Shown: one piece after another, positions 3,328 to 21,003 of the stretch
Position numbering within the stretch: position 1 is the stretch's first letter
Layout: every line of letters begins with the position of its first letter
Source: a virus
Length of the DNA: 23,564 bases
IMG/VR virus record: IMGVR_UViG_3300037086_000137
Span: 1-23,564 of that record
Strand: one strand, 5' to 3'
The notes under the pieces: generated by a model
Told to the model about the DNA's origin: nothing
The model's input: the letters and a program-made list of their open reading frames with translations, nothing else
Databases searched by the model: none
Made by a program: the position numbers and the translations under genes

Positions 3328-3960
3328 TCAATTAATACGGATTTGGCTTATGCCATCCCGCATATAGAAGTTAATCCTACGATCGGCGTACTCGATTTGC
3401 TCCGTAATATGGCTTACCATGATTATCTGTAGATGAAGATCACTTTCACTCACTTCCTTTATAACTTTCGCCCCTAATACCGGAAGGTTCCCGCCTTTCA
3501 GCCACTTCAGAGGTTCATCCAAGAACAAAACGCTTGACGTTCGCCGGGGCGCGAGGCTCCACATAGATGGGCGTAGTGCAAAGGCCGTAAGATCAACTTC
3601 GCCGCCACAGCCTAAACTCAAGGGCGGAATCTTGTATTTACCCTTTGAGAACGATATGTCCGCCTCTGTGCGCCCCCTACGAAGTACAAAGTCGAAATCC
3701 AGCTTGAAGGGATCGTCAAAAACAGAGGCAAGGGCAAGCGTACCTAATTCGCTCAAGTGGTACTCTAACTCCTTTTGAGTTAGTTGTGCCACATTCTGTA
3801 TGGTGATTTGCGCCTCTTCACAGTATATGGACTGGAGGCGAAGTTCTTCTAGTTCTTTTTCCGTCCGTTTGAGGTCAAGCTCCACTTGCGCCCGGCTCCC
3901 CTTGCGCTGCTCGAGCTTTTGACGAAACTGTGAGGCTGTTTCTATTGTCTGATCTGTCAT
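3328..3960 (-). CDS. Rad50/SbcC-like ATPase, C-terminal half (split gene)
   Basis: 210 aa. Residues 8-65 form a charged coiled coil (KRTEKELEELRLQ). The ATPase lobe follows: the ABC signature at 115-127 (SLGCGGEVDLTAF), Walker B at 144-150 (VLFLDEP) and the switch histidine at 184 (MVSHITEQ). There is no Walker A and no zinc hook; both are in the separate gene at 6552-7631. Together the halves would form the SbcC/gp46 ATPase that drives SbcD (5511-6395) in double-strand end resection. It starts at ATG with a 4-bp ATGA overlap with the upstream gene. The role as half of a split protein is inferred from complementary motifs. Confidence 0.85.
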   Translation of the reverse strand: MTDQTIETASQFRQKLEQRKGSRAQVELDLKRTEKELEELRLQSIYCEEAQITIQNVAQLTQKELEYHLSELGTLALASVFDDPFKLDFDFVLRRGRTEADISFSKGKYKIPPLSLGCGGEVDLTAFALRPSMWSLAPRRTSSVLFLDEPLKWLKGGNLPVLGAKVIKEVSESDLHLQIIMVSHITEQIEYADRRINFYMRDGISQIRIN

Positions 3961-4160
3961 TTTTCTTCCTTTTTGGCTTCCCAGCCCGCATGAAAATCAA
4001 GCCACCTGTTTTGGACATCTTTGTCCCTAAATCCGCAACTTTCCCCGGCCCAATGTTTTCTTAAAGAAACCCGAAAAAGGCCGGAAGACATCTCTTCCTT
4101 AACTTTTTTAACGAACGCATCTCTGCAAGCATATACATCTGTCAAATCTACAATACCCAT
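3957..4160 (-). CDS. Hypothetical protein
   Basis: 67 aa from ATG at 4160, with GGGGGG just upstream and a TAATG junction with the preceding stop. A TTG at 4172 would add four residues but has no usable ribosome binding site. The stop overlaps the next start by ATGA. It is a charged soluble protein (VDLTDVYACRDAFVKKVKEE; RWLDFHAGWEAKKEEK). The WLDFHAGWEA stretch is typical of small phage early proteins of unknown role. It lies between the coiled-coil gene and the Rad50 C-terminal half. Confidence 0.65.
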   Translation of the reverse strand: MGIVDLTDVYACRDAFVKKVKEEMSSGLFRVSLRKHWAGESCGFRDKDVQNRWLDFHAGWEAKKEEK

Positions 4161-4408
4161 TATGCCCCCCAATTATAGTTTTCTTTCAATGCGACTACAG
4201 CATCGGAGAACTGAGTATCGAGTTTCTGTACTTCCTCCGTTTTGCTTTTTATAAGCGCATCAATGCCTTTTAAATCCTTAACTCCAAAACCCTCTTCTGC
4301 CTGTTTCAGAAGCTGGTTGCGTTCTCCCTCGATACGTGTTTTGTCGGTCTTGGCCGTATCAACCTTTTCCTTCATGTCTAACAAGTCTTGTGCGAGATTT
4401 GCTGCCAT
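4160..4408 (-). CDS. Small coiled-coil protein, possible Rad50 accessory
   Basis: 82 aa, ATG preceded by GGAGGACGACA. Residues 4-38 and 48-74 are two predicted coiled-coil helices (AQDLLDMKEKVDTAKTDKTR; IDALIKSKTEEVQKLDTQFS) joined by a glycine-containing turn (EEGFGVKDLKG). This helix-turn-helix hairpin resembles a piece of a Rad50 coil. It is two genes upstream of the Rad50 C-terminal half, which has only a short coil of its own. A role as a separate coil segment is an inference; it could simply be an independent dimeric protein. Confidence 0.7.
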   Translation of the reverse strand: MAANLAQDLLDMKEKVDTAKTDKTRIEGERNQLLKQAEEGFGVKDLKGIDALIKSKTEEVQKLDTQFSDAVVALKENYNWGA

Positions 4409-4709
4409 TGTCGTCCTCCAGTTTTACCCATTGTTTTCTTGATTTGTGCCACCTATATTCTGCGTAGCCCCCGGGGAATTTGAATATAAAAAGTACCCCG
4501 TGCTCTTCTTCTTGTGTTGTCGGAAGGCAAGTAAGAACTCGTTCACACTCCATATCCGGGAATGTTATAAGTAGTCCGTTCATATATCCCACAACCCATA
4601 TACACCCAGTCTCTGCATGCTCAGGGGAGTCGTAGGAGAACAACCAGTTCTCGAAGTTTTGTTTATGTCGGATACAACAATCGGAAGTACAAGTCCTACG
4701 CCGTTCCAT
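4359..4709 (-). CDS. Hypothetical protein
   Basis: 116 aa, ATG at 4709, overlapping the 3' end of the homing endonuclease gene by 14 bp and the start of the coiled-coil gene by 50 bp, an unusually long overlap here. The N-terminus is Cys/His-rich (CTSDCCIRH). The middle has a hydrophobic patch (CIWVVGYMNGLLITFP) and an aromatic segment (FIFKFPGGYAEYRW). No family recognised. The long 3' overlap could mean the natural stop was lost and the last residues are an added tail. Confidence 0.6.
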   Translation of the reverse strand: MERRRTCTSDCCIRHKQNFENWLFSYDSPEHAETGCIWVVGYMNGLLITFPDMECERVLTCLPTTQEEEHGVLFIFKFPGGYAEYRWHKSRKQWVKLEDDNGSKSRTRLVRHEGKG

Positions 4710-5508
4710 TTATATTACCCACGTGCCCGTTTATGTATTTATTCCATTTTTTAACGAATGCTTTTGACTTGCTTACAGGAAGACCACACCCACAAGCGCA
4801 TTTAGGTGGGGCTGTTCTTCTCATGCTTTTTGCATCTTCTTTCTCCCACCATTTTCTTAGTGCAACCAGTCTTTTTGTTTTTACTTCTTCAGATAAGGGA
4901 CTTTTTTTGTATTTTAATACCAAAGCCTGCGATATTTTTTGTTTGTTTATGTCCGACATGGGGCCGTGTGGAACTTTAAGACGTAGTCTGTTCTTTTCAG
5001 ATAGGGGCTTTCCTTTTTTCGCTTTAGAAAGAACCTTCCCAAACCCAGAATATTTTGGTTTTCTCATTTTTTGTAGGGCCTCTTCTGTATGCGGTCCCCT
5101 TGGGAGTCTGTGCTTTTCTTTAAATTCTTCAGATCTAGGCTGTCTCATTTTTTGTTTTGTTTCTTCAGAGTGCTTTTTCCCCGTATTCATTTCTGATAAG
5201 TGTTTTCTCATCTCTTCTGTAAAAACATAACCAGAAACACCCTCCCCACCTGTAGTTATATTATACCCTTTTGGCGTTCTGCAATCATAAAAAGCAATCC
5301 AGTATTTTTCCTTCCCACAAAGAGTTTTCCAGTCGTTTGCTGAATCTATTACTGAAATAGTGAAAGATTGTAGTCCGTATTTTCGTAGTGCGTTCCCAAA
5401 GTATGTATTAGATACTAGGTGTTCGACAATCCTTTTATTTACGTCGCGTGTTGTTATTCCAATATATACTTTACGACTAACTTTATTTTCTGCTTTATAT
5501 ACTATCAT
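4696..5508 (-). CDS. GIY-YIG homing endonuclease with NUMOD3 repeats
   Basis: 270 aa from ATG at 5508, two bases after the SbcD stop; the TTG at 5529 would start inside SbcD. Residues 1-90 are a GIY-YIG nuclease: VYKAEN as the first strand, VYIGITT for the YIG side, the conserved Arg in RDVNKRIVEH, a catalytic Glu in CGKEKYWI, and GYNITTGGEG as the typical end. Residues about 95-230 hold repeated NUMOD3-like DNA-binding segments (KHSEETKQKM). The C-terminus has a Cys cluster (CACGCG with a later GH) seen in phage homing nucleases. The gene is visibly more A+T-rich than its neighbours and has a poor ribosome binding site, as expected for a mobile intruder. Confidence 0.9.
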   Translation of the reverse strand: MIVYKAENKVSRKVYIGITTRDVNKRIVEHLVSNTYFGNALRKYGLQSFTISVIDSANDWKTLCGKEKYWIAFYDCRTPKGYNITTGGEGVSGYVFTEEMRKHLSEMNTGKKHSEETKQKMRQPRSEEFKEKHRLPRGPHTEEALQKMRKPKYSGFGKVLSKAKKGKPLSEKNRLRLKVPHGPMSDINKQKISQALVLKYKKSPLSEEVKTKRLVALRKWWEKEDAKSMRRTAPPKCACGCGLPVSKSKAFVKKWNKYINGHVGNINGTA

Positions 5509-5510
5509 AC

Positions 5511-6395
5511 TTATTTTACAAAAGACCAAATCATGTCCTTTGTTCCTTTACGAATACGGTTTGTACTTAAAAAAGTCTCTATGTTTTCTTCAAAGGATAG
5601 ACCAATATCCCCCGGCCCCGAATTAAGTTTGTTTACAAAGGCGTCTATCCTTACGTCTTTGTGCTCCACAACATCCAGGTGCTCCCTACTGACTACGCCC
5701 TCAGTAATAGGAATGAACTTCTGCTCCACCCTGTTCTTGTCGGCATACCAAAGGAAGACGCAAGGCTTGTGGTCTACCTGATCCGCTTTGTGTCGAGTAA
5801 GGCTCCCGGGATTGACAAGCATGCGCCCGTCCTTTTCTACTGTAAACGTTTTATGATTATGACCTGTGATTACGAGATCGTACCCGCTCATGCTTTTTAA
5901 GAACTTGTCGGCCCCGGGGTCGGTACAGCCGGGGAATGGAGAACGGCCAATGTAAGTCATGTAGTGGCAAAGGGCCACAGAAGCGTCGGTACAATCTTGT
6001 GGTTCTATTCCCCATGGGAACCCCCGTACTATCATTCCCTCACCCTCTAATACTTCCCCGGCTTTTAATACTTTAACCTTCCCCGCCTCTTCCAGAACAC
6101 TCAGTCCGCTTTTATCATATAGATCGAGACTGTGAGAAGGAAGATCGTGGTTCCCGGGGACGGTTATGATCCCGTTCGGTAAATGCCGCAAGGCCCATTG
6201 TAAGAGATAGGGGGAGGGCTTCCAGTGTTGGAAGATGTCCCCGGCGTCTAATATGGGACATTCCCACGCCTCCTGCAACTGGGAGAGCCAAAGAAGTTTT
6301 CGCTCTTGCTCTTCCCAATAGTTGTCCGTTCTACAGATGGGTTGGTCTTCTCGTAGATGAATATCGGCTGTTATGATAGCGTCAGGAGTGCTCAT
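5511..6395 (-). CDS. sbcD: SbcD/Mre11-like exonuclease subunit (gp47-like)
   Basis: 294 aa calcineurin-type metallophosphatase. All metal-binding motifs are visible: D11-I-H13, G52-D53, G81-N-H-D84, H144 in LCHYM, and G178-H-N-H181. Mre11/SbcD with its Rad50/SbcC partner processes DNA double-strand ends; in T4 the pair gp47/gp46 is needed for recombination-dependent replication. The C-terminal 60 residues form a small helical domain of the kind that binds the Rad50 coil base. It overlaps the upstream coiled-coil gene by ATGA and is followed by the homing endonuclease. Confidence 0.92.
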   Translation of the reverse strand: MSTPDAIITADIHLREDQPICRTDNYWEEQERKLLWLSQLQEAWECPILDAGDIFQHWKPSPYLLQWALRHLPNGIITVPGNHDLPSHSLDLYDKSGLSVLEEAGKVKVLKAGEVLEGEGMIVRGFPWGIEPQDCTDASVALCHYMTYIGRSPFPGCTDPGADKFLKSMSGYDLVITGHNHKTFTVEKDGRMLVNPGSLTRHKADQVDHKPCVFLWYADKNRVEQKFIPITEGVVSREHLDVVEHKDVRIDAFVNKLNSGPGDIGLSFEENIETFLSTNRIRKGTKDMIWSFVK

Positions 6396-6550
6396 TTCTT
6401 ATTCTCCGTTTTGTACAAGAGCTTTGTATATATAGAAAGTTCGTGTTCTTTTATACGAAGAGTCTTTTCAAGATTGCTTATTTTATGCCTCAGCTCGTCG
6501 TTTTCTTTCTTGACTCGCAGCCAACTTGAAATCCAGTTTATTAGTTTCAT
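6392..6550 (-). CDS. Short coiled-coil peptide between Rad50-N and SbcD
   Basis: 52 aa from ATG at 6550, supported by GGGAGGAGTG nine bases upstream; the GTG or TTG starts further up overlap Rad50-N. After an amphipathic start (MKLINWISSWLRV), nearly the whole peptide is a heptad-like coil (KENDELRHKISNLEKTLRIK). It starts one base after the Rad50-N stop and overlaps SbcD by ATGA, so it is probably co-translated with both. Function unknown; a structural part of the split Rad50-Mre11 complex is possible. Confidence 0.7.
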   Translation of the reverse strand: MKLINWISSWLRVKKENDELRHKISNLEKTLRIKEHELSIYTKLLYKTENKK

Positions 6551-6551
6551 G

Positions 6552-7631
6552 CTAATCACTCCTCCCGCATAGTGGGCAAACATCTGGCATTTTTGCGTTA
6601 AACGCTTCTTCTACCCTTACTAGTTCCCGGCCTATGACTACAAGCCTGTCGTCGCAGGCCACTATATTGACGCGAATCTTGCGTAAACTTGCAACGTAGG
6701 CCGATGTCGTCCGTAAAGACTCTTGCAACTGCCGGGCGGCCACGATGTCGCTCTCCGCTTCGATTATTCCTATTAATACGGTCTCCTTCTCGTTCCCTGT
6801 CTTTAGTTGACTACTTATGCCTTGCAATTTCCGTATGTCTTTACGTATGCTGTCTATCTTCTCAGGGAACTTCTGCGCTGCTGTTATCTCCTGTTCGGCT
6901 TTTAAGATAGACGAAATGTTGTCCATTTTTTTATCTGTTGCGTCTATGTTGTATCGCAAGGACGTAAGACGTGAGATGTCCTTCTGTACCCCCGTCCTTT
7001 TTGTTTCTATCCCCTCAAGTAGGATAACATCCCGTTCCATATCGTCAAGATATGCGAACTCCGTAAGCTGCTTTGACAGACGTTCTACAGACGCTTCCGT
7101 GGTTTTAAGGCTTGTGGCGATACTAAACTTCTTCTTCTCAGATGCGGATACGGCCCGGTCAATAACATCGAGATTGACCGCTTTGTTTACTATGCGGGCC
7201 ACTTCCCCCGAGTTATTGCTCAAAAGGTAATAACTCGACATCTGACTTTGGAAATTGACATCACTTAGATTGAGAGCATTCACAACTTCTTGCGGCGGCG
7301 CACCGTTTCCTATGGCACGCAGCTCCTTTTTGTTGGCCCTGTTTAGTTCGTTGAGTTCGTAGAAGTTTCCCTTGTTGTCGTGCCCACGGGCAATTACATT
7401 TCCATTCGACCACCGGGTTTCCACCAGCATGTCCCCTCCCCAATAGCTTTGATACATTTCCCATGAAGGAGAGGTGATGTTATTGAACATCCAGTCCAAA
7501 GCCTTAAACACGTTGGACTTGCCTGTTTTGCTATCCCCTACAAGGGCATTGACGCCCGGGTGAAACTGGATTGTAGTATCCTTGTGGGACAGTATGTTTA
7601 CGATACGAACAGACTCCAGTATATTTCCCAT
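6552..7631 (-). CDS. Rad50/SbcC-like ATPase, N-terminal half ending at the zinc hook (split gene)
   Basis: 359 aa. Residues 1-160 are the N-terminal ATPase lobe: Walker A at 32-39 (GDSKTGKS) and the Rad50-like Q-loop segment at about 127-140 (FQSQMSSYYLLS) leading into SGEVARIVN. Residues about 160-345 are coiled coil. The protein ends at VCPLCGRSD, a C352-x2-C355 zinc-hook motif at the extreme C-terminus. Walker B and the signature are absent here and found in the gene at 3328-3960. The ATG shares a TAATG junction with the preceding gene. In standard SbcC/Rad50 these parts form one chain. Confidence 0.88.
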   Translation of the reverse strand: MGNILESVRIVNILSHKDTTIQFHPGVNALVGDSKTGKSNVFKALDWMFNNITSPSWEMYQSYWGGDMLVETRWSNGNVIARGHDNKGNFYELNELNRANKKELRAIGNGAPPQEVVNALNLSDVNFQSQMSSYYLLSNNSGEVARIVNKAVNLDVIDRAVSASEKKKFSIATSLKTTEASVERLSKQLTEFAYLDDMERDVILLEGIETKRTGVQKDISRLTSLRYNIDATDKKMDNISSILKAEQEITAAQKFPEKIDSIRKDIRKLQGISSQLKTGNEKETVLIGIIEAESDIVAARQLQESLRTTSAYVASLRKIRVNIVACDDRLVVIGRELVRVEEAFNAKMPDVCPLCGRSD

Positions 7632-7795: not shown

Positions 7796-8298
7796 AGACC
7801 TTTCCGGCGGGACCACTCTGCTATCAACAACCCGTCGGCGTCCCCCTTCATGAATTGGGCAAGCTGGGGAAATAGACGGCGGCCCATTTCGAGGCTGGCG
7901 AGTTTGAGTGCTTCTGGTCCCTTAATCCCCCGGGGCAGCATGTCTTTCTGCCATTCCTTACTGTCGACGAATTGCATAGGGATTTGTAACAGATCGAGAA
8001 CGGTAAGCGTGGCCTCCAGTGCACGGACAGCACTCAAAGTTGCTGTAAACATGCCGGGGTTCACTAGAGGACGTTCCAGTAATACTAATGAAAACACCTC
8101 TCTTTCGAGCAGCTCTTTTAAGGCCACAACGTTTATGCGTGTTATATGTGATACCTCTTTTTGATAATTTAAACAGGATATAACAGGTGTTTTATGATAT
8201 GATGCCCCGTACCCGGAACAGGGTATAATTCCTATACTCCCGGTTACTCCGTTGTCGATTCCAATATACGTTTTTTCAGGTCTTTTCGTTCTGTACAT
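7792..8298 (-). CDS. RuvC-like Holliday junction resolvase
   Basis: 168 aa with an RNase H-like fold. The acidic residues of RuvC are in place: D15 in YIGIDNGVTGSIG, E75 in LVLLERP, and D153/D155 in KGDADGLLIAEW. Length matches RuvC. It would cleave four-way junctions made by the UvsX/Rad50-Mre11 recombination genes around it and debranch DNA before packaging. The GGGGGG ribosome binding site lies in the last codons of the upstream gene. Confidence 0.88.
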   Translation of the reverse strand: MYRTKRPEKTYIGIDNGVTGSIGIIPCSGYGASYHKTPVISCLNYQKEVSHITRINVVALKELLEREVFSLVLLERPLVNPGMFTATLSAVRALEATLTVLDLLQIPMQFVDSKEWQKDMLPRGIKGPEALKLASLEMGRRLFPQLAQFMKGDADGLLIAEWSRRKGL

Positions 8299-9176: not shown

Positions 9177-10283
9177 TCAAAACCTCGGAATCCTGTTTAG
9201 TCGTACGCTTTCTTCCCGTTCCCGCCATACCTGGCCCGCCAGACGTTTTAAGTCCGGGAGCTTGCCCGATGTTACGATCATGTCCATTACTTCCCCGGTG
9301 CCGTCGAGAGGATAAGATCCCTTTACGCCAATATCCGGGGCATCCAATACGCCTCCAGAGCTCTTCTTCCATACGCCCAGCTTGATGAGGAAATCAATCA
9401 TAGAGCGGATGTCGTCTACGCCGTAGTCATACCAAATATCGAAGGCCACTTCGCGCAACTTTCCGTTCAGCTTGTTCTTGGTTATCTTTGCCTCGACTTT
9501 AGTCCCTACTTTTAACTCGTTCAGTTTATGTGTTCCCGTTTTATTGAGCCACACTTGATGTGATGAATAAAAGAAGGGGGCCTCCCCGCCGCTTGTAGTC
9601 CACGGATTGGAGAACGCTGTAGCGTTTGTGTTCTGACGGAGCTGTTGAACGATGATGAGAAGGCTTCGTGTTTCCTTGAGGCTTTGGTTTACCATGCGAA
9701 GAACTTTTCCAAGAATCTTCGCCTTTTCCATGCCGTAGCTCCCGGCGATCTTCTTCGCCGCTTCCTCACTCTTTGCCGCTGCCAACGCCTTACGCATTTC
9801 CTTCTCTAACTCCTCGTCGGACGTGAGAGCGTCCAAGGTATCAAGTACGTATATAAAAGGGCCTTTTTTCCCGGCCAAAAGGATATTGGTTTGGAACTGC
9901 TGTACGGTATTGGAAAGTCCTTGCGGGGGCTCTTCTACTGAATCCTCCACGTTGTCACCAAACAGAAAACGCGTATCAAAATTATAGGCCGCCTCTGCAT
10001 CATCCCGGTAGAACGAGTAGTCATCAAAACGTACATCGTTCACCCCTTCTGCAAGGGCCGTCTCCGCCAGCATGGATTTCCCTGAGGTACTGGACCCCGG
10101 GAGAGTCTGTATAGTTCCCAGTTCAAAGGCACCTCTCGTGTTGTCTGTGCATGCGAGATTTACCATTGTGGAGCCCGATGGATATAGGTCTTGCGGCTTT
10201 ACTTCTCTACGAGGCCTTGCTACGTCTTTTACAGACTCCTGCACCTGTTCCGGGATGGTGGCTGTCGTTCTATTTCTTTCCAT
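9177..10283 (-). CDS. RecA/UvsX-like recombinase
   Basis: 368 aa from ATG at 10283, with GGGGGAG nine bases upstream; the TTG at 10319 lacks a ribosome binding site. Walker A is at 63-70 (GSSTSGKS), Walker B at 144-148 (IYVLD). The L2-like DNA-binding segment at 211-246 follows RecA order (IVQQLRQNTN ... SGGEAPFFYSSHQVWL). UvsX-type proteins form filaments on ssDNA and pair homologous strands. The gp32-like and UvsY-like genes just upstream complete a T4-style presynaptic set. A RecA-fold helicase is the alternative, but the GG-x-A-x-x-F-Y-S-S stretch fits a recombinase better. Confidence 0.82.
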   Translation of the reverse strand: MERNRTTATIPEQVQESVKDVARPRREVKPQDLYPSGSTMVNLACTDNTRGAFELGTIQTLPGSSTSGKSMLAETALAEGVNDVRFDDYSFYRDDAEAAYNFDTRFLFGDNVEDSVEEPPQGLSNTVQQFQTNILLAGKKGPFIYVLDTLDALTSDEELEKEMRKALAAAKSEEAAKKIAGSYGMEKAKILGKVLRMVNQSLKETRSLLIIVQQLRQNTNATAFSNPWTTSGGEAPFFYSSHQVWLNKTGTHKLNELKVGTKVEAKITKNKLNGKLREVAFDIWYDYGVDDIRSMIDFLIKLGVWKKSSGGVLDAPDIGVKGSYPLDGTGEVMDMIVTSGKLPDLKRLAGQVWREREESVRLNRIPRF

Positions 10284-10521
10284 CGGAAACCACTCCCCCT
10301 TTCTTGAAATTTCCCTCAAGAAACTTGTTGAATTTTTCTTTATCTACAAACCACTTGCTTCCCGCTCCACCCGGCTGAAAGCCCAGTTTGTTAGTATCCA
10401 CCCACTTTAGAAGGGTGGCGTACGTAATATTCATGCCAGCCCTCTTCGCTTTCTCAAGTGCTTCCTCTGGCGTGAAGTACTTTATTTCTTCCTCTGTTTT
10501 GTGTTCTTCTGTTGTTGCCAT
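10270..10521 (-). CDS. Excisionase/MerR-like helix-turn-helix protein
   Basis: 83 aa, ATG after AAGGAGGGCGGC. Residues 15-72 match a small winged HTH of the excisionase/HTH_17 type: YFTPEEALEKA as first helix, NITYATLLKWV as recognition helix, then a wing and KWFVDKEKFNKFLEG. It overlaps the recombinase start by 14 bp and follows a structured spacer. It may be a DNA-binding regulator or architectural factor of this operon; the partner site is not known. Confidence 0.7.
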   Translation of the reverse strand: MATTEEHKTEEEIKYFTPEEALEKAKRAGMNITYATLLKWVDTNKLGFQPGGAGSKWFVDKEKFNKFLEGNFKKGGVVSDGKK

Positions 10522-12528: not shown

Positions 12529-13449
12529 TTAACCGTTCAAAGCCTTATAGCAGGCAAGCACGAGTCCGGCCTTACCATTGTTGAAGAACGGCTTCTCGAA
12601 GGAGTCTAGAATAAGAAACGCCCGGGGATTGTCGTCCTTCATTAAAACGTTGGAGCAGTATGTGAGCATACCCTGCCGTACCTGTTCCAGATTTTCCTTT
12701 TCTAACCCGGAGAGAATAGGCCCCAGCTTGCCCCACTTTTCCCCCTTTATAAGAGCCCGGTAGAGTTCGATAACGGCGTTGTTTCTTGCGGCGGTTGTTG
12801 CGGCTACCGCCAACATGTCTTCCTTTGGGAGGTCTATGACCTTTTCCAATACCTGCAGGGCGTCTCTACAACTTCCCATACTGTCCGTGGCTATCTGTTT
12901 GAGAACATCAAGAGGCACCCGCTTGCGCTCCGCCGATACTATCTCCCGGAGGAATTCTGCCATTTCCTCTTCTGATAGTGGTTGCATTTCGAATGTAACG
13001 CACCGGCTACGCAGAATTGTGGACAGCTCTTGCGGGTCTGTTGTGCATAGGATGAAGTATACGTGGTCGGGCGGCTCTTCCGTTACCTTTAACAGGTCGT
13101 CTTTCCCGTCCTTTGTTATCTTATGACACTCGTCAAGGAGCCATATCCTGCAGTCGCTTTCCATTGGGGGATACGATACTGACCTCCGTATCTCTCGTAT
13201 TGCGTCTATTCCCCGGGCGTCTGCAGAATCAACTTCTTTGTAGTCAAGTCCTTTACACCCTAGTGCGGCGGCCACCAACCTGCCCATTGTTGTTTTTCCG
13301 CAGCCATGAAAACCGATGAAGAGCCAGGTATGAGGAATCTCCTCTTTCTTGCGAGTCAATATTGCCTTGACTGCCTTTACAACCATCTTATTCCCGGCCC
13401 CGGCTATCTCGTCGAAGTCCCCGGGCCTGTACGCCTTTGCTAACGCCAT
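12529..13449 (-). CDS. Sliding-clamp loader ATPase (DnaX/gp44-like)
   Basis: 306 aa AAA+ protein. It begins with the clamp-loader signature LAKAYRPGDFDEIAG, then Walker A at 46-54 (GFHGCGKTT), Walker B at 106-109 (DECH) and the SRC trans-acting arginine motif at 148-150. It lacks the zinc-binding cysteines of bacterial DnaX and stops after the collar-like helices, so it resembles T4 gp44. It would open the clamp encoded at 16735-17781. No separate small subunit (gp62-like) is evident in the window. TAATG-type coupling to the upstream gene. Confidence 0.9.
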   Translation of the reverse strand: MALAKAYRPGDFDEIAGAGNKMVVKAVKAILTRKKEEIPHTWLFIGFHGCGKTTMGRLVAAALGCKGLDYKEVDSADARGIDAIREIRRSVSYPPMESDCRIWLLDECHKITKDGKDDLLKVTEEPPDHVYFILCTTDPQELSTILRSRCVTFEMQPLSEEEMAEFLREIVSAERKRVPLDVLKQIATDSMGSCRDALQVLEKVIDLPKEDMLAVAATTAARNNAVIELYRALIKGEKWGKLGPILSGLEKENLEQVRQGMLTYCSNVLMKDDNPRAFLILDSFEKPFFNNGKAGLVLACYKALNG

Positions 13450-13892: not shown

Positions 13893-15308
13893 CTAAAGAT
13901 GTATTTCTTTTTTATCGTACCAAGATTGATCAATCTCGGTTATTGCTATCTCTACGTCGATTGGTACTAGAATCCATTTATATTTCTCCATAAGCTTCGT
14001 CGTCATGATTTCCTTGATAGTGCCCAGCAAATCCGCTTCTTCCCCCGGCTCCTCGTCCACTATAAGTTCGTCATGTATTTGTCCTATGATTTCCGATTTG
14101 AAACGATTCTCTACTATGAAGTCGTCTATGTCAATCATCGAGCTCAGGGTAAGATGAAATGCGCTGCCCTGAATAGGATAGTTTATGACTTCATTGCGGC
14201 GCATAACGCCTTGACAACGGAAGCCTGTAAGCGTATCGATATACCCCCTCTTCTGATACTCTGACCACCAGTCGTCCTTCCACTTTGTATACTGAGGAAA
14301 ACGTTTGTTCCAGAAATGGTTCTCCACACGTTTCATGTGGCGTTCGAAGTCTTCTAAACACTCTATCTTTTTCGACGCCAGGTGGTCGATTAAGCGAACG
14401 CCCCCGGGCAGCATGTGCGTATCTTTCTTTGCGGAGAACCAAAGAGCCCATGCGCAGGTCTTATACCAGTCCCCGTAGAACTCAGGAAATACGAAATCGC
14501 TCTTCCCGCTGTTTCTGATTGCTTTGTAATACTTCGTTCCGTTCTGTTTATCAAGGGCAAGAGTCAAATCCATTAGGTGTTTATCGATGAGATAGATTTC
14601 CATTGCCATATCCCGGTGCATATCGCTCTCGGGATTTGTGTTATACTTTGTCATCGTGGGGTCTTTGTGATAACAGTTTGCTACCCTTACTTCAACCCCG
14701 GAGAAGTCAATACTAACTAACTTCCGGCCCTTCTTCGGTTTTATCGCCCGCCGACAGATCTGACGAATCTCTGGGTCACGGTTGGGGATATTCTGGAAGT
14801 TCGGCATACTGCTGCTGCTTCGGAAGGTAACTACGTTGTCCAGTCTAAAGAAGGGGTGCATGACCCCGTCGACGGCGGCGGACACGAAGTTTGCGAGATA
14901 TGTGTCCTTTGCCTTTGCCAGCTTGCGCCGCCGCAACAGGTAGTCCAGTTCCGGGACATCTGACGTAAGGGCCTCTAACGCCTCCGCCCGGCAAGACGGT
15001 TTTCCTTCTGGATATGTCTTCGAGGGTTCTGTTCGTTCCGTTGGGATGAACTTCATCTTGTCGAAAAGAATAGTGGCCAACTGATCGTCGGAATTCAGAT
15101 TGAGCGTTCTTCCGTATGTGGCCCGGCCTACTCGTCCTATTTCGGAGTCGGCCAACTGTGCATCGAGACGTTCTATTTGTCGGCCCAGATGCCTCTGCAT
15201 GCGGTGACAGTAGTCTATGTCTACGTGGATACCTGCCCGCTCCGCCTTTGCCAATACTAAGGAGCTTCTGTGCATGAGTTCGTATGCTTCGAGAGTATAT
15301 GGGGTCAT
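13893..15308 (-). CDS. polA: Family-A DNA polymerase, polymerase domain only
   Basis: 471 aa. The N-terminal part is the thumb (YTLEAYELMHRSSLVLAKAE). The TFRSSSSMPNFQNIPNRD motif at 161-178 precedes motif A with D201 (SIDFSGVEVRVA), motif B at 265-279 (R-x3-K with a YG end) and motif C at 412-414 (IHDELIVDEE). All catalytic acids are present, so it should be active. The usual N-terminal 3'-5' exonuclease is not in this chain; it is fused to a uracil-DNA glycosylase in the separate upstream gene. The ATG shares a TAATG with a 15-codon ORF. Confidence 0.92.
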   Translation of the reverse strand: MTPYTLEAYELMHRSSLVLAKAERAGIHVDIDYCHRMQRHLGRQIERLDAQLADSEIGRVGRATYGRTLNLNSDDQLATILFDKMKFIPTERTEPSKTYPEGKPSCRAEALEALTSDVPELDYLLRRRKLAKAKDTYLANFVSAAVDGVMHPFFRLDNVVTFRSSSSMPNFQNIPNRDPEIRQICRRAIKPKKGRKLVSIDFSGVEVRVANCYHKDPTMTKYNTNPESDMHRDMAMEIYLIDKHLMDLTLALDKQNGTKYYKAIRNSGKSDFVFPEFYGDWYKTCAWALWFSAKKDTHMLPGGVRLIDHLASKKIECLEDFERHMKRVENHFWNKRFPQYTKWKDDWWSEYQKRGYIDTLTGFRCQGVMRRNEVINYPIQGSAFHLTLSSMIDIDDFIVENRFKSEIIGQIHDELIVDEEPGEEADLLGTIKEIMTTKLMEKYKWILVPIDVEIAITEIDQSWYDKKEIHL

Positions 15309-15355: not shown

Positions 15356-15523
15356 TTAATTTCCCCTCATGCGAAGTGATGAAAACCTGTCTGTATGTCT
15401 AAATGCGGTACAGGGTGCCCCGTTGTAGCAGTCGTTGTCCTTGTCACACGTCCCGGCATATAGACAGTACTGAGTCTTCTTGTTTTTCTTTTTCCTCGGC
15501 CCGGCCTTTGTTTTGTACTTCAC
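15356..15523 (-). CDS. 55-aa Cys-rich basic protein between exonuclease and polymerase genes
   Basis: GTG start overlapping the exonuclease stop (GTGA). The N-terminal 20 residues are very basic (KAGPRKKKNKKTQ), then C20-x5-C26-x5-C32-x5-C38 (evenly spaced cysteines), ending HTDRFSSLRMRGN. The spacing suggests a small metal-binding or nucleic-acid-binding domain. It is too short for standard gene finders. Its place between two halves of a DNA polymerase suggests a replication role, but this is inference. Confidence 0.6.
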   Translation of the reverse strand: MKYKTKAGPRKKKNKKTQYCLYAGTCDKDNDCYNGAPCTAFRHTDRFSSLRMRGN

Positions 15524-16734
15524 TTTATCATCCTCATCTGAATTTCGGACAGTCTAAACTCAAGCAGGCTATCCAGTCCGTTGTATACTAATAGGTCATC
15601 CATAGGAATCTCGTGAATACGGTTGAAGCTGTTCCCCACTTTGTTCTCCCCGGACTTTAGGAGCGGCTCTATATGACTATCGTAGTCGCATAGTCCAAAA
15701 TGTATATACGCTTGGAACTTCAGACCAGAGGACAGAGACCTGTTGTCTATAATGTGGGCGGCTATCATGCTATCCCACTCCCAGTTCCCAACATGCACTC
15801 CTAATATCTCTTTCGACCACGTATCCTCAAACTTCATGTTATGTGCCCGCTTCGGAATAAAGGGGCTTGATATTACCTCACACAGTTTACGGCGCACAAC
15901 ACCGTCCTCTGGAATAGGAAAGGCAAACGCCTCCATGCCAGATGTGCTTATGGAGCACGTCACTATGCGGTGCCCCGGGGCCTGTGGTTTCAGTCCCGTG
16001 GTCTCGTAGTCAAACGCAATGGATTGTCCCCAGTCGATGTAACTTTGCAGGCGATTGTAAATCTTGCGACTATTGTATTCCCGAGTCACCAAACTCTTTT
16101 CATTTAGGAAGTTCGGCATGGGCTCTCGCAACTTGTCAAACGCTTGCTCTAAATCTTGGTCGAATATAACTTCGACGACCTTGTTATCCATCTTTAGAGA
16201 ACGCTGTACATAGGAGGGATGAAATGTGGGGCAGACCCATGCGGATACGTCTCGGTCGGGAATGGTGAATCCCCGCCACCGAGATATGCCGCCGAGGTCT
16301 TTCATCCAGCGGCCACCCAGAAAAGATTCGACAGCCGGGCCGCCCAATAGGATTATCATCTTCGGACGGAAGCTTTCTATCTCTGCCCATACCCGGGGCC
16401 TGCAGTGGTTTATCTCTTCGCTTGTTGGTGTTCTATTGTTGGCGGGCCTACAGTTTACAGCATTTATCTTCCTGCAGTCCCTATCGAGGTCAATACCATA
16501 GGACAATAACTTCTTTCGAAGATATTGCCCGGCGCGTCCGATTAACTGTTTGTTTAGTCTGTCCTCGTCTTCCCCGGGGGCCTCCGCAATAAAAAGCACT
16601 CCACGTTTGCCCTCCCCGGTAGCCTCCATTTTTGGAGATAGACAATGCCGGTAGAGTCCACATGCGGCGCACCCAGTAAGACGACTAAGAGTATCTTTAG
16701 ACTTGACTTCTTCTTTAGAGAAAAACCCCGGCAT
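15520..16734 (-). CDS. Family-4 uracil-DNA glycosylase fused to DnaQ-like 3'-5' exonuclease
   Basis: 404 aa. Residues 15-205 are a family-4 UDG: Fe-S cysteines C22, C25, C95 and C111 with spacing 3/70/16, close to the family; EAPGEDED for the active site; NCRPANNRTP; and the FHPS loop at 171-174. Residues 236-404 are the proofreading exonuclease: Exo I D242/E244 (FDYETTGLKP), Exo II HNMKFED at 298-304, Exo III Y384-x3-D388. UDG-exo-pol fusions in one chain occur in phages; here the polymerase domain is on a separate gene. The product would remove uracil and mismatches while working with the polymerase. ATG directly follows the clamp stop. Confidence 0.9.
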   Translation of the reverse strand: MPGFFSKEEVKSKDTLSRLTGCAACGLYRHCLSPKMEATGEGKRGVLFIAEAPGEDEDRLNKQLIGRAGQYLRKKLLSYGIDLDRDCRKINAVNCRPANNRTPTSEEINHCRPRVWAEIESFRPKMIILLGGPAVESFLGGRWMKDLGGISRWRGFTIPDRDVSAWVCPTFHPSYVQRSLKMDNKVVEVIFDQDLEQAFDKLREPMPNFLNEKSLVTREYNSRKIYNRLQSYIDWGQSIAFDYETTGLKPQAPGHRIVTCSISTSGMEAFAFPIPEDGVVRRKLCEVISSPFIPKRAHNMKFEDTWSKEILGVHVGNWEWDSMIAAHIIDNRSLSSGLKFQAYIHFGLCDYDSHIEPLLKSGENKVGNSFNRIHEIPMDDLLVYNGLDSLLEFRLSEIQMRMIK

Positions 16735-18014: not shown

Positions 18015-19400
18015 TTACTCGAATAACGGTCGTACTTCTTTGAAGTCGTCCCCCTTGTAGTAACAGAGAACCATCTGGTGTGTCCGTCCTAATTTTCTAT
18101 ATTTACTGAAAAAGCTACTTGTGCGCACCGCCAAGCTCCCCACGGCCGTAATCAGAACGGCGTCGTTGTATAGCCGCAGCCCGGCGTCCTTAAATGCAGC
18201 ATTCGTATCGTCTATGAAGCCACGTAGCATGCCTGTGTCCTTATCTCTGAAGTCCCCTACAACAAAGCATGCGAACCGATTGTTTTTCAATAGGCTACAA
18301 CTACGTTTGATTATGGAACGATATGACTCTAAAAAGCCCTCGTATGACATGGATGAGATATCCTTTGGGTCGTCGCTATACACTTCCAGGTTCCCGTATG
18401 GAGGGCAGCTAAACAGAAAGTCTGCGCCGCCCGGCTCCACGTGGCCTCGCGTAAGGCTACGGATGTTTGAACTGTCCCCGTTAATCCATGTGGGGGCCTT
18501 CGCGCCACGAGTGATTCCTTTGGCGTCCATATCTACCCATTGGGCCATGTTTGCCAAAACCTGGTTCTCGCTTAGTTCTACCCCGGTGTATTGATAACCA
18601 AGCATGCTCGCGACGATTCCCCGGACTGAACCCCCGGCGAATGGGTCTAGGATAGTGCCCCCGGGCGGGCACCACCAACTGTAGGCCAGCTCGCAGAGCA
18701 CTGGGTCGAATATGCTTGTCCCCTTGAGATTGTTCTCCGGCTTCGCATTGGGGTCATTCGCCGCATTCTGCCGCCTTTGTTCCATGAGCTTGTTGAGTCC
18801 GTCTTGTGCTACAAACGCTGTAGCCGGGCCGGGCTTTACTTTTGGCTGATTTAAAATCTTGTTGGTGGAATCAACACCATAGGTGAGATACCCTTTCTTA
18901 CGCTGCATCTTACCGGTGCGCAGCGTGTCAGTCTCCCCGGTAATTTCCCCTGCCATGTCCTGCCGCAGCATGTTCTTCTTCTTTTGGTCTACGGATACGG
19001 CGGCGTGTTCCGCTTTTATATCATGCACGCTTGCTAGGTCTCCGTAGAGTAATTGGTTTCTTTTTTGTTGGAGGGACGCATCCGGGTGGGTTTTTATCGA
19101 TTCCGTATTATACAAAAGGGCCTTTGCCTTTTCGTCCTGCGTCAACATGCCCGCTTGGAACTTATGGAAGTCGGAGGATACGGTCTTGCTGAACTTCAAC
19201 GCATTCTCCCCCCGGCCAAGCTCGCTCTTGATTCCCAGTTGCAGCCAAGCGTTTTTCCTGTCCTGCCATGCGCCCTCCCGAGCATTTAACACTGAGAACG
19301 GACTTACGATAAACCTGTCCTTGAACGTTAGGAGCAGCCGCTCAACACTTATATCAAACCCCCCTACTTCCTGAGGGTTGAAACGATTTCGTTTTGCCAT
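18015..19400 (-). CDS. DNA N6-adenine/N4-cytosine methyltransferase with long N-terminal region
   Basis: 461 aa. Motif I is at 252-258 (DPFAGGS, in ILDPFAGGSVRGIVASMLG) and the catalytic motif IV at 331-335 (SCPPY). Motif I precedes IV, so it is not of the beta class order. The first 230 residues contain SVLNAREGAWQDRKNAWLQL and ELGRGE, seen in phage methyltransferases often annotated as ParB-like/methylase. A stand-alone phage methylase would protect phage DNA from host restriction or mark it. No restriction enzyme is next to it. Target sequence is unknown. Confidence 0.85.
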   Translation of the reverse strand: MAKRNRFNPQEVGGFDISVERLLLTFKDRFIVSPFSVLNAREGAWQDRKNAWLQLGIKSELGRGENALKFSKTVSSDFHKFQAGMLTQDEKAKALLYNTESIKTHPDASLQQKRNQLLYGDLASVHDIKAEHAAVSVDQKKKNMLRQDMAGEITGETDTLRTGKMQRKKGYLTYGVDSTNKILNQPKVKPGPATAFVAQDGLNKLMEQRRQNAANDPNAKPENNLKGTSIFDPVLCELAYSWWCPPGGTILDPFAGGSVRGIVASMLGYQYTGVELSENQVLANMAQWVDMDAKGITRGAKAPTWINGDSSNIRSLTRGHVEPGGADFLFSCPPYGNLEVYSDDPKDISSMSYEGFLESYRSIIKRSCSLLKNNRFACFVVGDFRDKDTGMLRGFIDDTNAAFKDAGLRLYNDAVLITAVGSLAVRTSSFFSKYRKLGRTHQMVLCYYKGDDFKEVRPLFE

Positions 19401-20126: not shown

Positions 20127-20945
20127 TTAGCAATTATTTTTCTGGGAGGATACATACTCAGTCTCGCGTATTCCTACAATCCAGAACAGGTCCCCGGGCT
20201 GCAAGAATGGGAGGCACTTTGCTTCATAGTGAGAGTCTAGTCGTATGGAATCTAGCTGGGCAGTAACAGCGGGGGCGTGGTAGTCAAGGCCGCTGTTGGC
20301 CAACGTGACAAGCCAATCAACGCCCACAGGCCCGTACTTCCTTAATCTCTCCGTAGGATCGGCCCCGACCTTTATTCCCAGCACAGGAATACGGGAACCC
20401 AAATCTATTCGTAAGCCATTTAAAAGGCCCGCCAAAGACATCCCGCTGCCTACTGGGATAACGATGCGCTTGACTTCTTTTGGGATGTCCTTTACCTGTG
20501 TTCTCGTTTGATACACGGCCTCCCAGCACTCCATACCAAATGGAATGTTTGTCCAGTTCAAACGTTTAGCGTCTTCACGGGCTCGCGCAATGATGACGTT
20601 GTTGTACCCGGCCTTGTGCTGTACTATGGTGGCCCCGGCGTCCCTTGCGGATATAAGTTCCGGGGAGAGCTCCCCTTGAGGAGTATGTACTCGACATGGG
20701 ATGTTTAAATGCTTCGCAATATGAGCCACAATGTTTACCTGGGGACTGGAGCGGCTGCCCGCTGTGCATAAACCAACGGCCCGTTGTGACAAGGCCCAAC
20801 ATGTGCGCACCTTACCTCCCCGGACGCCAGCTATCTCGAAAGTGTCTTCCCGTTTTACATATAGGCCCCGGGCGGCAATATATTCGATTGGAGTCAAGGG
20901 ATTGTCGTCCCACTTTTTGTTACTATCTATGTCTAAATCAAACAT
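20127..20945 (-). CDS. PLP-dependent enzyme, fold type II (tryptophan synthase beta / ACC deaminase-like)
   Basis: 272 aa from ATG at 20945 with GAGGGG upstream; the ATG at 20987 lies in a terminator hairpin and is rejected. The VKREDTFEIAGVRGGKVR segment puts the likely Schiff-base lysine at K45. SRSSPQVNIVAHIAKHLNIP is the substrate/helix region of ACC deaminase-like proteins, and PVGSGMSLAGLLNGL is the glycine-rich loop for the PLP phosphate. I recall similar genes in actinobacterial phages with no proven role. Possible roles include amino-acid chemistry for DNA modification or host metabolism; the sequence does not decide. Confidence 0.82.
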   Translation of the reverse strand: MFDLDIDSNKKWDDNPLTPIEYIAARGLYVKREDTFEIAGVRGGKVRTCWALSQRAVGLCTAGSRSSPQVNIVAHIAKHLNIPCRVHTPQGELSPELISARDAGATIVQHKAGYNNVIIARAREDAKRLNWTNIPFGMECWEAVYQTRTQVKDIPKEVKRIVIPVGSGMSLAGLLNGLRIDLGSRIPVLGIKVGADPTERLRKYGPVGVDWLVTLANSGLDYHAPAVTAQLDSIRLDSHYEAKCLPFLQPGDLFWIVGIRETEYVSSQKNNC

Positions 20946-20971
20946 ACGGATTCCCCTCGGACTTGGACTAG

Positions 20972-21003
20972 AAAAGCCCCCTCCCATGCGAAGGGGGCTT
21001 TTT
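20972..21003 (-). terminator. Rho-independent terminator after the Pro/Ala-linker gene
   Basis: An 11-bp perfect stem (AAAAGCCCCCT with AGGGGGCTTTT) and a 9-nt loop. On the - strand the stem ends in CTTTT then CTAG; it follows the stop at 21030 by about 27 bp. It would limit transcription from P3 into the PLP enzyme gene, giving far more of the first product. Confidence 0.85.

Follow-up and report, generated by a model that had tools for sequence, protein, structure and literature searches.

The window, one virus record of 23,564 bases and a 23.6-kb genome fragment, encodes a Rad50/SbcC ATPase that is split into two genes at the zinc hook. Rad50 in separate chains cut at the hook, together with a conserved tiny coiled-coil protein, is found in many phages and on some large bacterial plasmids, so that a protein regarded as one looping chain would evidently be able to function in separate parts. 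Judging from the sequences, we consider it quite probable that these genes specify a phage SbcCD in which Rad50 would be assembled in trans, with a two-chain head, an arm that ends at the hook and a mini coil protein that would brace this arm.

Identity of the two halves and their gene neighborhood

The sequence-only reading of the window had taken two ORFs for the halves of a split Rad50, with complementary motifs that each occur once. Both ORFs were found at the coordinates it gave, on the minus strand, and both observations were confirmed. The N-half (359 aa; 6552..7631, minus strand) comprises an N-lobe (residues 1-153) with the Walker A motif GDSKTGKS, a helical arm (155-347) and a terminal CPLCG. 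Its C-terminus reads ...MPDVCPLCGRSD, i.e. it ends in ...CPLCGRSD, with the zinc-hook motif CPLC at residues 352-355 (6567..6578, minus strand). The C-half (210 aa; 3328..3960, minus strand) contains a coil of around 65 aa, the signature motif CGGEVD, Walker B (LFLDEP) and the switch His (MVSH). By sequence, all four motifs of a Rad50-type ABC head are present, divided between two chains.

The N-half matches AAA_23 (E 4.6e-9) and PHROG 16465 (E 3e-20). Its family profile recovers Rad50 N-lobes among the solved structures (E 2.7e-16), and the distal end of this profile matches the solved hook domain of human Rad50 (5gox, E 9e-5). In the AlphaFold2 model (mean pLDDT 87), which has Rad50 1f2u as its best structural match (Z 13.6), the N-lobe is followed by arm helices 155-191 and 194-347 that stop at the hook. 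The C-half matches PHROG 15167 over its full length (E 2.6e-12) as well as the Rad50 C-lobe 3qkr_B, with an E of 5e-4 for the window sequence and of 1.2e-13 for the family profile. All of 30 aligned C-halves have the catalytic Glu in Walker B, and both hook cysteines are likewise invariant in 61 aligned N-halves. The CxxC motif, which marks the arm tip as in Rad50/SbcC, was present in 126 of the 126 N-halves that were measured, usually around 20 residues or less from the C-terminus; Microbacterium phage Magritte is the exception (see below).

As transcribed from the minus strand, the gene order is N-half, a 63-aa ORF, SbcD, endonuclease, a 116-aa ORF, the 82-aa coil protein, a 71-aa ORF and C-half. 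The SbcD/Mre11-like metallophosphoesterase (294 aa; 5511..6395, minus strand; motifs DIH, GD, GNHD, H and GHNH) was recognized by Pfam Metallophos_2 (E 1.3e-10) and by the SbcD-like PHROG 100 (E 2e-4), and provides the genetic link to the SbcD/Mre11 nuclease that is characteristic of Rad50/SbcC. A GIY-YIG/NUMOD3 homing endonuclease (4696..5529, minus strand; PHROG 314, E 4e-31, with matches to Pfam GIY-YIG and NUMOD3 as well) lies between SbcD and the mini coil gene (4160..4408, minus strand), which is flanked by the 116-aa ORF (4359..4709, minus strand) and the 71-aa ORF (3957..4172, minus strand). The endonuclease lies outside the module, and we read it and two small ORFs in the same interval, none of which the sequence-only reading had mentioned, as additions of the lineage of the window.

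Elsewhere in the window, a RecA-family recombinase and a clamp-loader-like gene (9177-10319 and 12529-13449) form a recombination/replication set. Separate genes (13893-15308 and 15520-16734) encode the DNA polymerase A domain and the associated 3'-5' exonuclease, the latter fused behind a uracil-DNA glycosylase-like domain; a similar-looking gene of 406 aa occurs in locus L003. A PALP-type pyridoxal-phosphate enzyme is found near an N6/N4 DNA methylase (20127-20987 and 18015-19400), and the two are possibly part of a DNA modification set.

A second complete SbcC gene in the genome had been named as a finding that would speak against a split. The window itself is a fragment of a genome that could still carry one, but 35 records of relatives, complete cultured-phage genomes included, yielded no second Rad50. 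AAA_23 gave one match over the cut-off in 34 of these records, and in the remaining one, Tunturi_5, the N-half was detected with the family profile. The AAA_23 frames did not exceed 520 aa and were all too short for a fused Rad50 of ordinary size.

Conservation of the split among viral relatives

The same split was already present in the earliest relatives found, and its conservation was established in two samples that have certain contigs in common. A search of viral contigs with the C-half alignment yielded 80 loci, which together with other loci represented 73 distinct C-halves; from at least 530 relatives detected in a second scan, 80 were taken for analysis, and 70 of these proved distinct. 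In both samples (73 and 70 distinct C-halves) the N- and C-halves were always separate. Within the second sample, 63 loci included 4.6 kb or more of sequence before the C-half. SbcD and the mini coil were found in all 63 and the N-half in 62, and in each of these 62, for which the order could be scored, it was N-half, SbcD, mini coil of around 80 aa and C-half. The arrangement in the first sample was similar. Among the 70 distinct loci of the second sample no protein joined any two of the four parts, and the mini coil was fused to neither half. Some longer C-half ORFs of the first sample were considered as fusions, but these appeared to be upstream start choices. The search of related phages that the sequence-only reading had proposed thus recovered the split in both samples and no fused form in the second.

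Some loci deviate from this pattern. In L009 (3875-5103) and L046 (4882-5843) the N-half reads as two overlapping ORFs, the result of a frameshift or a further split; the N-half is intact in L010, a contig with a locus closely similar to that with the two overlapping ORFs. In Magritte, the N-half lacks CxxC, the N-half, MRE11 and C-half genes lie far apart (L099:2501-3553, L006:1655-2686 and L004:284-934), and no mini coil gene was recognized. Given these absences, one or more lineages may be able to do without the hook and the mini coil. The halves are also widely separated in Tunturi_5. Regarding bacterial chromosomes, a single narrow-pattern scan of genome contigs gave one weak locus for the split.

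The distance matrices of N-lobe, C-half, SbcD and mini coil correlate, mostly beyond every shuffle. The correlation between N-lobe and C-half had a rho of 0.56 (shuffled maximum 0.17), and that between N-lobe and mini coil a rho of just 0.22, which is about the shuffled maximum. Part of the correlation may result from shared phage descent.

The small coil protein

The sequence-only reading had noted two coiled-coil mini-proteins between the halves. The one at 4160-4408 proved to be conserved; the other, the 63-aa coiled-coil ORF (6392..6583, minus strand), has no homolog in any related locus, as a phmmer search over all ORFs of the first 94 loci matched only the query itself, and it probably lies outside the module. 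The family HMM of the conserved protein matches the window with an E of 2e-22 and finds one gene in 68 of the 73 distinct loci of the first sample (worst E 1.9e-10). Beyond these matches, locus L077 and a Microcystis phage, no ORF of that sample scored better than E 0.025. In L077 the usual arrangement is reversed, with the gene (7993-8235; E 4e-16) downstream of the C-half. The HMM score was weak for the Microcystis phage, and the same holds for the candidates of Bacillota phages and plasmids (E 2e-4 to 0.02).

In most loci the mini coil protein has a length of around 75-95 aa, and its gene adjoins that of the C-half, often with an overlap of a few bases. The window protein was modeled by AlphaFold2 with a pLDDT of 95.5 and a pTM of 0.66 as two helices (2-41 and 46-77) with a short turn in between; considering this secondary structure and the pTM, it is predicted to be a two-helix hairpin. 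A Foldseek search with the model against PDB and BFVD returned nothing useful, and no consistent PHROG, Pfam or NCBIfam family was found. Comparison of the mini coil and arm profiles gave a probability of 75%, which for coiled coils is no evidence of kinship.

The arm varies in units of 47 residues

The two coils are unequal in length, as had been claimed: the arm of the window measures 194 residues from anchor to hook versus around 65-70 in the C-half. In 126 N-halves, the arm length, taken as the distance between the N-lobe end and CxxC, is quantized in 47-residue units to 147, 194, 241 or 288 residues. More precisely, the classes comprise 144-152, 183-204, mostly 231-249, and 288 residues, with few lengths in between (e.g. 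172, 218 and 221). The best comb period was 47.0, with an R of 0.83 versus at most 0.28 across 500 smoothed resamples. The autocorrelation of the arm sequence peaks at lag 47 and then at 94, and the two larger length classes have concordant profiles. Related sequences share arm classes, and the poorly resolved N-lobe tree requires a minimum of 29 class changes, versus a mean of 32 with shuffled labels. Considering how near this is to the shuffled number, the steps are not explained by shared descent.

While the arm varies by up to 140 residues, the mini coil and the C-half coil (around 65) are constant in length, so that a single mini coil cannot by itself account for the returning strand. The idea that the coil protein just completes the antiparallel strand therefore fits poorly. 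As the whole story it was rejected, since mini coil and C-half coil together (around 145 residues) fit the shortest arm class (147) only. The broader suggestion, that part of the coil is supplied in trans, is plausible for the near-universal protein at 4160-4408 and not for the ORF at 6392-6583. The spacing of hydrophobic residues is 3.38 in the arm (weak at 3.5), 3.5 in the C-half coil and 3.64 in the mini coil; the arm value is unlike that of an ordinary heptad coil.

Plasmid forms and natural fusions

Plasmid MRG65-300 of Alteromonas mediterranea encodes a protein of 546 aa (L189:3983-5623) with a C-lobe (6-149) followed by an N-half (197-544) that ends in CEKC. As judged from its sequence, this is a Rad50 of permuted domain order whose two lobes share a single chain that terminates at the hook, and the joining of the lobes supports the notion that they form one head. 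The 176-aa gene just upstream of the fusion begins like a mini coil protein (HFGTDSLTA), a likeness seen by eye and not by score.

A three-piece form is found on the Bacillota plasmids p3 of B. velezensis and pB6464 of Alkaliphilus, and the Geobacillus plasmid pGspE55-1 and the Paenibacillus plasmid pSC2 carry a fusion of SbcD with the N-half next to separate genes for mini coil and C-half. A joining of SbcD to Rad50 parts is also known from the Mre11-Rad50 (SbcDC) fusions of plasmids and phages surveyed in 2011, two of which, those of Anaerostipes and Bacillus phage 0305phi8-36, were noted to lack one P-loop segment (PMC3175470). The Geobacillus and Paenibacillus fusions differ in that a C-half was found, in a separate gene. 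By analogy with these plasmids, a separate C-half gene would explain the missing segment, and the split thus offers a reading of the 2011 remark on half-missing SbcDC fusions.

Proposed assembly and alternative explanations

The suggestion of the sequence-only reading that this Rad50 is built from several chains is strongly supported by the conserved gene order, the complementary motifs, the lack of a second Rad50 in the 35 records and the permuted lobe fusion. The N-half would supply the Walker A lobe and the entire outgoing arm, tipped by the CPxC hook, and the C-half the short coil and the lobe with signature motif, Walker B and switch His. These lobes would dock into one ABC ATPase head that would bind SbcD as ordinary SbcCD does, and two heads would dimerize on ATP, by which the SbcD nuclease would be regulated at DNA ends in phage recombination/replication. 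The coil of the C-half would pair with the base of the arm, and the mini hairpin of around 80 aa would brace the distal arm, replacing the missing returning strand, possibly in multiple copies with one per 47-residue unit. One zinc ion would be shared by two hooks, closing the arms. It is along these lines that we infer the assembly of the complex, its stoichiometry, zinc binding and activity.

The GIY-YIG endonuclease between the halves of the window might suggest that the gene was broken recently, for instance by invasion of a homing endonuclease, and that the halves are remnants. However, the break point is identical in well over 100 distinct viral loci and the ATPase motifs are conserved; given this conservation of the split, such damage was rejected as hardly conceivable. 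It is also very improbable that the halves represent two unrelated ATPases that are neighbors by chance. The large distance between them in Magritte and Tunturi_5 and their different database names (exonuclease for PHROG 16465, ATPase for PHROG 15167) could be taken that way, but this reading was rejected on basis of the complementary once-only motifs, the essentially complete co-occurrence and the presence of both lobes in one chain in the Alteromonas fusion. A split defense-type SMC protein, LmuB of Lamassu, instead of a repair SbcC, is improbable too. In a PADLOC scan that covered the halves, the mini coil and SbcD, the N-half did match LmuB PDLC03859 over its whole length (E 2.7e-16), but no LmuA or LmuC was recognized among the window genes between or beside the halves and the partner is SbcD. 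In addition, the catalytic Walker B Glu is kept (30 of 30 aligned C-halves), whereas in LmuB it is usually, not universally, changed to Gln (PMC10586767). As a fused relative, LmuB rather speaks for the proposed assembly: on its profile the window N-half covers positions 6-339 and a related C-half 429-586, and the gap of around 89 residues equals the size of the mini protein.

For the arm, we tentatively put forward a trans-assembled modular rod, in which a mini hairpin would dock on each 47-residue unit and a multicopy mini coil would yield a chain of three-helix bundles. If true, the number of units would set the arm length, and an SMC-like arm built in this way would represent a new architecture. 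The main rival to the proposed bracing of the arm, conceivable yet doubtful, holds that two N-half arms pair in parallel, hook to hook, and that the mini coil acts elsewhere, as a regulator or adaptor of SbcD or the head without a structural role. Such pairing would suit the constant length of mini coil and C-half next to an arm that steps by 47 residues, the spacing peak at 3.38 (weak at 3.5), unlike that expected for pairing with an ordinary heptad partner, and the retention of both halves in Magritte without a recognized mini coil gene. The near-universal occurrence of the mini coil in the other loci, its position next to the C-half gene, often with an overlap of a few bases, and the correspondence of its size to the gap on the LmuB profile argue against it.

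Comparison with known systems

The PHROG families of the halves were already known, but PHROG 16465 and 15167 are not labeled as parts of one protein, and in cultured phages the halves are annotated as chromosome segregation protein, exonuclease, ATPase or hypothetical protein. In the open-licence literature that was searched, neither a Rad50 that is split at the hook nor the third component is described. The labels of many phage genes (hypothetical, exonuclease, ParA, chromosome segregation protein) would be corrected accordingly.

Rad50 is regarded as signaling along one chain, from head to hook and back. A natural Rad50 without chain continuity, kept in many phages, separates the needs of head, arm strands and hook, and with an arm length that changes in fixed 47-residue steps it offers ready-made parts for testing head-hook communication.

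LmuB of Lamassu is Rad50-like as well and in many members has a CPxCG hook, but it is a single chain of around 600-650 aa in a defense operon. With Rad50/SbcC and Mre11/SbcD, including phage gp46/gp47 and the Rad50 of jumbo phages, the window system has the N-lobe, the C-lobe, the CxxC hook and the SbcD partner in common. The known Rad50/SbcC is a single chain with the hook in its middle and two arm strands alike in length, as in Aphrodite1 (825 aa, mid-chain CPEC). In the system described here, in contrast, the chain stops at the hook, the arm of 144-288 residues faces a C-half coil of around 65, the SbcD gene separates those of the two halves, and the set includes a third small gene.
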